Positions 7,356 to 17,040 of a stretch of 40,893 nt of DNA are shown here, piece after piece. Source of the DNA: Candidatus Methanovorans sp. (GTDB lineage Archaea > Halobacteriota > Methanosarcinia > Methanosarcinales > Methanosarcinaceae); NCBI GenBank assembly GCA_020793565.1, contig DQIP01000226.1:1-40893 (forward strand). Direction: 5' to 3'. The position numbers and the translations under genes are program-made. Under the pieces are notes generated by a model. That model worked only from the letters and a program-made list of their open reading frames with translations. It searched no databases and had not been told where the DNA came from. Position 1 is the stretch's first letter. Each line of letters starts with the position of its first letter.

Positions 7356-7605
7356 GTATTTGTATAGATATAATAAGATCAATGCACAAATGAGATTGTT
7401 TTATTTGAATCAAAAAACACTACAAACGCCGCAGGCGGCGTACTTCCACAACACTGACGTCAATGATATGAACGTTTTCTCGTAGTATATTTTGTACATC
7501 TTATCCAATTCAAGTCAATCCGACCGATATAGATTTTTTCCATTATGTTTGAAATGCGCCGCCTGCGGCGTATTGCATCGGAATCAAAACGATCTAAACA
7601 AGTAC
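7356..7605. mobile_element. MITE-like element B, copy 1
   Basis: A 250-bp non-coding element almost identical over about 200 bp to 16684-16919. It has imperfect terminal inverted repeats (GTATTTGTATAG on the left, and GTACTTGTTTAG read inward from the right) and two internal GC palindromes, CGCCGCAGGCGGCG near 7428 and CGCCGCCTGCGGCG near 7557, which are reverse complements of each other. The left end differs from copy 2 by about 14 extra bases. I see no clear target duplication here; the boundaries are taken from copy 2. Confidence 0.7.
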
Positions 7606-14582: not shown

Positions 14583-14650
14583 CTGATTCAATAGGCCCTG
14601 GGAACAAAAATGCTGCAGCATAGCGGTTAGTTTTTACGGCAAATACTACA
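14583..14650. repeat. Repeat C, inverted copy, with outer inverted arm
   Basis: Reverse complement of the repeat at 11455-11525. Its outer end, ATTCAATAGGCCCTGG (14584-14599), is also matched in 15 of 16 positions by CCAGGGCCTATTCAAT, read as its reverse complement, at 14964-14979, just past the right end of element A copy 1. The two arms enclose about 365 bp. Confidence 0.5.
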
Positions 14651-14691: not shown

Positions 14692-14966
14692 TAGTGTTGT
14701 GTCAACTATCAAGTATCGTATTATTTTACCGAAACTGAAGAGATCGGAGCACCAGTTCCTATCATAGGTGTGATATTTTACTACTGCCAAATCCACAATC
14801 CAAACATACGATTCTAAGATCTGCAAATACGACACCACTTGAAAACAGTATTATATTTTTATTTATGGTGTTGGGAAATGCCGCGCTGCGCGCGTGGTAG
14901 CACCGTTTTTCATATCTGCCTTAACCCCCTTCTGTTTAGCAACTTTGTATTGTTGACATGACACCA
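14692..14966. mobile_element. MITE-like element A, copy 1 (unoccupied)
   Basis: A 275-bp non-coding element. Its ends are inverted repeats: TAGTGTTGTGTCAAC on the left and, read inward from the right, TGGTGTCATGTCAAC. The interior matches 16522-17040 along its whole length once the 244-bp insertion there is removed, giving exactly 275 bp in both copies. It contains the uninterrupted site CAGTATTATATTT at 14846-14858, where copy 2 carries element B. No gene and no clear target duplication are seen. Confidence 0.8.
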
Positions 14967-14977
14967 GGGCCTATTCA

Positions 14978-15232
14978 ATGGAATGGCGTACCCGGATAAT
15001 ATCCTACCTTATAGTCAGCCCCCGCGCGACAATCCCCCCGCAGGCAGCACGTTCTACTGCTACTGTCCACCTGTATCCGAAAAATCCGTTACTATGTCCT
15101 GAACAATACGTACAAACACAGATCACTGGCAGCGATTGGATTTTCGGTGTGTATGCAGGGCAGGTGGTGGAGAGCAGCGCCGCGCTACACGCGCGTGGTA
15201 ACACCAAATTCCCAACCTGCCGGATTAATGGA
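14978..15232. other. Intergenic debris downstream of element A
   Basis: No gene is supported; the longest open frames have low-quality composition. The stretch at about 15176-15225 (GCCGCGCTACACGCGCGTGG, then TAACACC and CTGCC) resembles the right interior of element A (GCCGCGCTGCGCGCGTGG, then TAGCACC and CTGCC) and may be a fragment of a third copy. A GCAGGC palindrome remnant lies near 15040. Confidence 0.35.
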
Positions 15233-15236
15233 CCTG

Positions 15237-15533
15237 TTAGATATTTGCAAGCAGATCGAGTCCCTTATCGGTCAGCCTGTATAGGTCATTTTCGACCTTT
15301 AAGAAATTCCCGCTCATTAAGAACTCTGCCTGGTACTTGAGCGAAGCATCATCAATATCAATTTCACCCTGTATCTCTTTTTTTGTCTTACCGAATACGC
15401 CAATGGATCTTACAAGATTTCTTCGTAATGGATGCGATACGGCTTTGTTCAACATTTCATGATCCTTCTTTTTGCTCTCACGTGCAGATGGAGCCGCCAT
15501 CATCATTTCTTCAAGTTCATCATCTTCGATCAT
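15237..15533 (-). CDS. Small winged-helix DNA-binding protein
   Basis: 98 residues. An acidic, Met-rich N-terminal tail is followed by an ArsR-like winged-helix fold: LNKAVSHPLRRNLVRSIG (helix 1), KTKKEIQGEIDIDDASLKYQAEFLM (recognition helix region), and a wing with FLKVENDLYRLTDKG. It is probably a transcription factor; its target is unknown. The start is ATG 15533, ten bases after AGGGAG; the GTG at 15542 is too close to that site. It is divergent from surE, 180 bases away, so it could act on that promoter region. Both N- and C-termini are short compared with larger archaeal regulators, and no ligand domain is visible. Confidence 0.75.
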   Translation of the reverse strand: MIEDDELEEMMMAAPSARESKKKDHEMLNKAVSHPLRRNLVRSIGVFGKTKKEIQGEIDIDDASLKYQAEFLMSGNFLKVENDLYRLTDKGLDLLANI

Positions 15534-15712
15534 ATTTGTCACACTCCCTTATTATTTTCATATGGTATAATGTAATTGTCACTTATTGTTTATTAGATTA
15601 TCGACGGTTGTGCACAACACGCACACATTCTATACGCCATGTTTCCGGAACCTGTGCATTTTTTCAACATATATCCATTAATTATAAAACATCAAAGAAC
15701 AATGGAATATCC

Positions 15713-16501
15713 ATGGCTCCTAAGATACTACTTACAAATGATGACGGTGTCTATGCCACAGGCATCAGGGCAGCATACAAAAGTGTTTCAGACCTGGGGG
15801 ATGTTACTATTTCCGCCCCTGCAATGCAGCAAAGCGGCGTAGGGAGATCAATATCGATCTTTGAGCCACTACGGATCAATAAAACCGTTATTGATGGTGT
15901 TACTGCCCATGCCATTGGCGGCACTCCGACCGATTCTGTGATACTCGGAATATTCACGATCATGAAAGAGATGCCGGATCTCGTGCTCTCCGGCTTTAAT
16001 ATCGGGGAGAACATCAGCACAGATACGATCACAACATCAGGCACGATCGGTGCTGCGCTCGAAGCTGCAAGTTACGGAATACCTGCTATCGCAGCATCGA
16101 TACAGGTGACAGAAGAAGGAACAAAGTTCGATGACCTGCGCGATTACCAGCACGATTTTGATATAGGGATCAAAGTGGTCAATAAAATTGCAAGGAAGGT
16201 ATTAAAATACGGACTGCCGGACAATGTTGACCTGTTGAACGTAAATATCCCCCACTTTGCAGGGGATGATACTGAAATCGAGATAACCCGCCTTGCACGC
16301 AAGATATTCAAGACTTCAGTACAAGAGCGCCATGATCCGCGCGGCAGGCCATATTACTGGATCGACGGTGACCTTGTCCGTGAAGAAGAAGAGGGGACGG
16401 ATGTGCATGCGATAATGCAAGAAGGGCATATTTCGATAACGCCGATTACACTTGATTCCACATCTCCGGTCAACCCATCTGAGATCAAAAAACTGATATG
16501 A
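15713..16501 (+). CDS. surE: 5'/3'-nucleotidase SurE
   Basis: 262 residues. SurE removes phosphate from nucleoside monophosphates and polyphosphate using a divalent metal. The N-terminal metal-binding motif KILLTNDDGVYATGI begins at residue 4; APAMQQSGVGRSIS follows near residue 40 and SGFNIGENISTDTITTSGTI near residue 95. The length is in the family range. ATG 15713 is chosen because the NDD motif must lie near the N-terminus, although the frame is open for 110 codons upstream; that upstream part has no protein character. The ribosome binding site is weak (AATGGAATATCC). It is followed at once by element A copy 2. Confidence 0.93.
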   Translation: MAPKILLTNDDGVYATGIRAAYKSVSDLGDVTISAPAMQQSGVGRSISIFEPLRINKTVIDGVTAHAIGGTPTDSVILGIFTIMKEMPDLVLSGFNIGENISTDTITTSGTIGAALEAASYGIPAIAASIQVTEEGTKFDDLRDYQHDFDIGIKVVNKIARKVLKYGLPDNVDLLNVNIPHFAGDDTEIEITRLARKIFKTSVQERHDPRGRPYYWIDGDLVREEEEGTDVHAIMQEGHISITPITLDSTSPVNPSEIKKLI

Positions 16502-16521
16502 TCCGGTATGGTTTTTGCGAC

Positions 16522-17040
16522 TACTGTTATGTCAACTATCAAGTATCGTATTATTTTACCGAAACTGAAGGGATCGAAGCACCAGTTCCCATAATAGGTG
16601 GGACATTTCACTACTGCCAAATCCACAATCCAGACATGCAATTCTAAGATATGCAAATACGACACCGCTTGAAAACAGTATTGGTATTTGTATAGTTGCG
16701 TAAATGAGATTGTTCTATCTGAAGCTAAAACCAATACAACCGCCGCAGGCGGCGTATTTCCACAACACTGACGTCAATGATATGAACGTTTTCTCGTAGT
16801 ATATTTTGTACCTCTTATCCAATTCAAGTTAATCCGACCGATATAGACTTTTTCCATTATGTTTGAAATACGCCGCCTGCGGCGGATTGCATCGGAATCA
16901 AAACGATTTAAACAAGTACCAGTATTGTATTTCATATTTATGGTGTTGGAACATGCCGCGCTTAATCGCATATGTTCGCGCCGTTTTTCACATGCCTTAA
17001 CCCTTCCGTTTAGCAACATTGTATTGTTGAGATGACACTA
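16522..17040. mobile_element. MITE-like element A, copy 2, split by element B
   Basis: The ends TACTGTTATGTCAAC (16522) and, read inward from the right, TAGTGTCATCTCAAC (17040) are inverted repeats matching copy 1. Removing 16684-16919 plus one 8-bp target copy leaves 275 bp, the length of copy 1. The two copies align along their full length at roughly 85-90 percent identity by eye. It lies 20 bases after surE. Confidence 0.82.
16684..16919. mobile_element. MITE-like element B, copy 2, with 8-bp target duplication
   Basis: A 236-bp element bounded by CAGTATTG at 16676-16683 and CAGTATTG at 16920-16927. Copy 1 of element A has the empty site CAGTATTA. Its termini GTATTTGTATAG and, inward from the right, GTACTTGTTTAA pair imperfectly. 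It contains the two GC palindromes and the core GTTAATCCGACCG at 16828-16840. No coding capacity is visible, so it must have been moved in trans. Confidence 0.88.

Follow-up and report, generated by a model that had tools for sequence, protein, structure and literature searches.

Canonical IS66 insertion sequences have ends that begin 5'-GTAA, duplicate 8 bp of target DNA and carry a tnpA/tnpB/tnpC gene trio. An archaeal lineage of this family departs from that scheme: its representative in a sister genome of the one studied here (L328) has TnpC only, together with a DUF2080 ORF, in place of the trio. The IS630 family, part of the IS630/Tc1/mariner superfamily, includes a lineage of about 1.2 kb with CTAGTGTCATGTCAAC ends that is found across archaea and bacteria. 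MITEs are described from prokaryotes, including archaea, as small, multicopy elements with terminal inverted repeats and target duplications that are moved in trans (PMC10969869). The text of that review contains neither IS66 nor IS630 nor the word "nested". The same review (section 4.2) covers the Rickettsia palindromic elements, the nearest precedent for a 262-bp coding element considered below.

The window, that is, the whole 40,893-nucleotide stretch of Candidatus Methanovorans sp. DNA that was analysed, contains two copies of a small element, A, the second of which is interrupted by another small element, B. Judged from their sequences, A and B are two unrelated, newly found MITE families of known kinds. 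Like the MITEs of the review, they are small and multicopy, with terminal inverted repeats and target duplications, and they would likewise be moved in trans. They differ from these in being two nested families, with autonomous-type partners for both. The nested pair alone is ordinary in kind, and its value lies in its clean anatomy and in the lead that it gave to a frame-preserving coding element.

Anatomy of the nested locus

A sequence-only reading of the window had described two small non-coding mobile elements, with B nested in A after the insertion of A. This description holds, and the coordinates of both A copies, of B and of the 8-bp repeats proved correct when the sequence was re-read (Table 1). 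The interrupted copy, A2, has a perfect CAGTATTG repeat on either flank of B, and subtracting B and one repeat leaves 275 bp, the length of the uninterrupted copy, A1. The two copies are about 86% identical, and the break in their alignment coincides exactly with the ends of B. The agreement 519 − 244 = 275, to which the sequence-only reading had pointed, is sound as arithmetic but partly a matter of luck, because the alignment, gapless to the left of the site, requires compensating gaps to its right.

A1 had also been offered as the pre-insertion control. Its site is indeed unoccupied, but it reads CAGTATTA, whereas most of the remaining genomic A copies read CAGTATTG at that position and run through it without interruption; these are therefore the better empty-site controls. 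At the right end of A1, TA has changed to CA, and the TA duplication of this copy is no longer intact. Just outside A1 is a 16-bp inverted repeat, ATTCAATAGGCCCTGG (94%; 14586-14601 and 14964-14979), as if A1 lay within another element.

Each arm of the inner inverted repeat of B contains a palindrome-like GCCGCAGGCGGC. The additional B copy reported at 7356-7605 is genuine, with 94% identity to B over its last 218 bp, although its first 30 bp or so are altered; its 8-bp flanks, GGTTTGGT and AAAAAAAG, are wholly unmatched, the duplication having been lost or never present. A full-length copy with 96% identity and a 7/8 duplication lies elsewhere in the source genome (G000:C218:5668-5903). A2 is located between surE, which ends at 16501, and the next gene, and both insertions of the nested pair, A2 and B, are intergenic.

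Table 1. Features of the nested locus and related copies (window positions, except in the last row).
Feature	Position	Strand	Remarks
A copy 1 (A1), 275 bp, IS630-type MITE, uninterrupted	14692..14966	+	some 20 other copies in the genome align with it; ends as in the IS630 lineage
A1 left terminal repeat, TAGTGTTGTGTCAAC	14692..14706	+	
A1 right terminal repeat, TGGTGTCATGTCAAC	14952..14966	-	
CAGTATTA in A1, unoccupied counterpart of the B target site	14846..14853	+	
A copy 2 (A2): 275 bp of A, B and one 8-bp repeat, 519 bp	16522..17040	+	TA at both ends
A2 left terminal repeat, TACTGTTATGTCAAC	16522..16536	+	
A2 right terminal repeat, TAGTGTCATCTCAAC	17026..17040	-	
Element B, 236 bp, IS66-type MITE in A2	16684..16919	+	ends GTATTTGTATAG / GTACTTGTTTAA; perfect 8-bp duplication
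Left 8-bp target duplication of B, CAGTATTG	16676..16683	+	
Right 8-bp target duplication of B, CAGTATTG	16920..16927	+	
Perfect 21-bp inner inverted repeat of B	16740..16885	none	arms 16740-16760 / 16865-16885
Second B copy, 250 bp	7356..7605	+	past the 3' end of a leuB-like gene
B-like fragment at the contig end	40833..40891	-	81% to the right part of B
262-bp element copy in the source genome	L358:776-1042 (G000:C112, start 25774)		host: SAMHD1-like HD phosphohydrolase

Two families and their transposase-bearing relatives

At E ≤ 0.001, A has 46 matches and B 56 in the source genome (2.45 Mb in 236 contigs), numbers that put both repeats far beyond chance. Both are multicopy in all seven genomes of the genus (7/7), and neither was detected in the other genomes of the family and order that were searched (0/53). 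The terminal motif of B, GTATWTGTWTAG, was counted 67 times in the source genome and its reversed control 2 times; the corresponding counts in one sister genome are 181 and 1. Many of these motif matches lie near contig ends, where repeats that break assemblies would be expected. Many contigs of the genus terminate inside A- or B-type repeats. In one sister genome (G001:C20), a 113-bp A-like stretch lies within a 628-bp B-type element.

The ends of A are asymmetric, TAGTGTYRTGTCAACTATCAAGT on one side and TAGTGTCRTGTCAACAATRCAATGT on the other. Both types, each at its own end, are found on IS630 elements of about 1.2 kb, which form 73 non-redundant pairs, nearly all of them from public genomes. 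These loci were retrieved from archaea and bacteria with the transposase as the query, and the closest, 87% identical, is in an ANME-1 archaeon. Two sister-genome elements with A ends, L164 (1226 bp) and L169 (1216 bp), are both decayed, with a frameshifted transposase (NCBIfam transpos_IS630, E = 1.7e-43; Pfam DDE_3); L191 is an intact IS630 element of the L164 lineage. A transposase remnant of the same lineage, 77-88% identical, is present in the source genome (L128, on contig C205).

A-type end pairs of MITE size number 29 (non-redundant, 229-445 bp). C precedes TA on one or both sides in every one of them, and on both in 15; among the 73 IS630 pairs it does so on both sides in 50, which points to a CTAG target of which TA is duplicated. 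Adjacent A-type elements join at a shared CTAG, and an A-type end also adjoins another IS630-type copy (L126) at CTAG. Multicopy and devoid of a transposase reading frame, A shares with the 1.2-kb lineage both distinct ends, the CTAG context and the terminal TA; it differs in being 275 bp long, in having no transposase gene and in being restricted to one genus among the genomes searched. These features mark A as an IS630-derived MITE, probably mobilised in trans by an IS630 transposase.

For B, 38 non-redundant, non-coding terminal-repeat pairs were compared with controls in which one flank was shifted by −3 to +5. The flanks agree at 7/8 or better in 19 of the 38 pairs and exactly in 12, against 0-1 with a shifted flank, and B thereby passed the genome-wide check for 8-bp duplications that the sequence-only reading had proposed. 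The longest exact duplication is 8 bp, never 7, 9 or 10, and the duplicated target is A+T-rich; half of the pairs are without a clear duplication.

The candidate partner of B is the L328 element, 1649 bp long with GTATTTGTTTAGCT at both ends, whose 452-aa IS66 transposase (NCBIfam transpos_IS66, E = 4.6e-73) is intact and is accompanied by a transposon-associated DUF2080 ORF; the flanks of L328 itself match at only 6/8. Further loci of this IS66 lineage that share the end, L295/L340 and L293/L343, come from another family. MITE ends are identical to those of L328 over 13-15 bp, and B in the window agrees with the IS66 ends at 11/12 and 10/12 bp; B-type and IS66 elements have some 12-15 terminal bp in common. 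B shares the terminal motif and the 8-bp duplications of this archaeal lineage and differs from it in being 236 bp long and without genes. The ends of B, like those of L328, begin GTAT instead of GTAA, and B is therefore named IS66-type and not a canonical IS66 derivative. It appears to work like an IS66-dependent MITE, probably mobilised in trans, an assignment for which the evidence is its ends, the length of its duplication and co-occurrence.

The source genome assembly, which breaks repeatedly within these repeats, contains no intact IS66 element of the L328 lineage, and a search for viral relatives of the IS66 transposase returned none. Several other candidate parents were set aside. The other IS66 elements of the source genome (C79) belong to a distant lineage with about 24% identity. 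In G002:C7, B-type ends form a 1.9-kb pair around an ATPase-like gene, with no transposase and with unmatched flanks. L126 (~750-1990, G000:C1) is a complete IS630-type element with a 390-aa open frame; its ends, TAGTRTATCGATTCCAAA, are different, and it merely adjoins an A copy. At 200-1930 of the window there is an IS1634-type element whose transposase is spread over three frames through stops or frameshifts, and its ATAGTCCCTATT ends match neither A nor B.

Succession of insertions and competing explanations

What has been observed here comprises the anatomy, the target duplications, the empty sites, the spread in many copies and, in sister genomes, elements that carry a transposase between matching ends. 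Very likely, A is a non-autonomous IS630-type relative, B is a non-autonomous element with IS66-type ends, and A2 was in place before B entered it. A, being Tc1/mariner-like, would insert at CTAG and duplicate TA, while B would use its IS66-type ends and duplicate 8 bp. Copies of A would have spread to begin with, A2 would have inserted between surE and the next gene, and an IS66-type transposase would then have put B at CAGTATTG within A2. Both elements would have been moved in trans by those transposases, or by close relatives that have since been lost, have decayed or are unassembled in the source genome. The earlier claim that A and B depend on a transposase elsewhere is upheld to that extent. 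In place of the one full-length IS for which a search had been suggested, there are two separate candidate partners; A and B fall to different transposase systems, IS630 and IS66, and no single parent IS therefore has both sets of ends.

That one transposase moves both, B being a rearranged derivative of A, is scarcely credible. Their nesting and the genus-wide range that they share would fit, but their different ends, and the TA of the one against the 8-bp duplications of the other, already refute it; the two also showed no sequence similarity when compared in the window, and each has separate transposase-bearing relatives. A more serious contender, though still an unlikely one, is that B was mobilised by another family that makes 8-bp duplications (e.g., IS256, IS1595 or ISL3) and that its likeness to IS66 ends is due to chance. 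B-type and IS66 ends have, after all, just those 12-15 bp in common. Among such families, the search covered ISL3 and returned a 92-position fragment in one sister genome, on which ISL3 was rejected as the parent of B. Against chance stand the identity of up to 15 bp between MITE and L328 ends and three independent IS66/DUF2080 loci with a GTATTTGTTTAGCT end; these loci come from the genus and from a second family, and one of them has the end on both sides.

There is also very little to be said for A and B as regulatory or structural repeats spread by recombination and not by transposition. The strong inner palindromes of B and the mostly intergenic position of both elements would suit such repeats, but precise empty sites and 8-bp duplications at the exact ends are signatures of transposition; a regulatory role may have been acquired later. 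Equally improbable is that the nesting is an artefact of metagenome assembly. The assembly is in 236 contigs, many of which end within A- or B-type repeats, but a chimera would not produce an 8-bp target duplication at the ends of an element, and the contig extends well beyond the nested site in both directions. The preferred reading, an IS630-type element later entered by an IS66-type one, makes the nested pair a clear example from nature of two transposition systems acting in succession, with both duplications, empty sites and candidate transposases together, in a lineage whose mobile DNA has received little description.

A coding element with B-type ends

A search outside the window found that B-type ends also bound a 262-bp element, which occurs in several of the order's families; copies in this genus are rare. 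The element consists of one frame from end to end, 87 codons long (YLFSWDEIPGND...ELNIY), with no internal stop in 39 of 40 distinct copies. The copies were collected via their ends, so that end conservation is by construction, whereas the duplications and the frame are independent of it. Flanks agree at 7/8 or better in 10 of the 40 copies, against 0-1 when shifted, and exact 8-bp duplications were found at L316, L361, L341, L352, L370 and L372. The possibility that GTATTTGTTTAGCTGGGA matches in other families were chance matches in coding regions was rejected, since the 8-bp duplications show mobility. In 30 of 39 copies the frame of the element stays open for 40 codons or more to either side, compared with 0-2 in the five other frames. 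Insertion preserves the frame because the element and its duplication together make 262 + 8 = 270 bp, which is divisible by 3 (90 codons).

The host genes are unrelated. The source genome copy, L358, splits a SAMHD1-like HD phosphohydrolase: PDB 2hek aligns with the host protein as far as its residue 70 ahead of the element and resumes at residue 73 behind it. The host of a sister-genome copy (L348) is a DNA primase small subunit, with Pfam DNA_primase_S matching in two stretches. A Rad3-like helicase (L311) and an IS1634-type transposase (L368) are further hosts, and helicase, transposase and tail-like genes are used in other families of the order. Two copies of the element lie in single reading frames at L361:2-3640 (a 1213-aa frame) and L378:548-2860. 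The element was also seen at L316, L361 and L309. The 87-codon domain matched no Pfam family and had no clear PDB relative; phage, plasmid and viral searches gave no relative, and its motif did not occur in any of the papers searched.

The family with the most copies of the element includes a genome that has an IS66/DUF2080 locus, L318, with the same end. The 262-bp element is probably an IS66-driven, frame-preserving, protein-coding MITE that adds a small domain to unrelated proteins, the IS66 drive being suggested by its ends and duplication length. It is rarer and weightier than the nested pair and, if confirmed, would open to experiment the question of how proteins, among them a replicative primase, tolerate a mobile domain or put it to use.

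Like the Rickettsia palindromic elements, the 262-bp element is small, has a conserved frame and sits in-frame in unrelated host genes. Unlike them, it is archaeal, spans 87 codons and has IS66-type ends, visible 8-bp duplications and an identifiable partner transposase family. If confirmed, it would be their archaeal equivalent, and one with a visible transposition mechanism.
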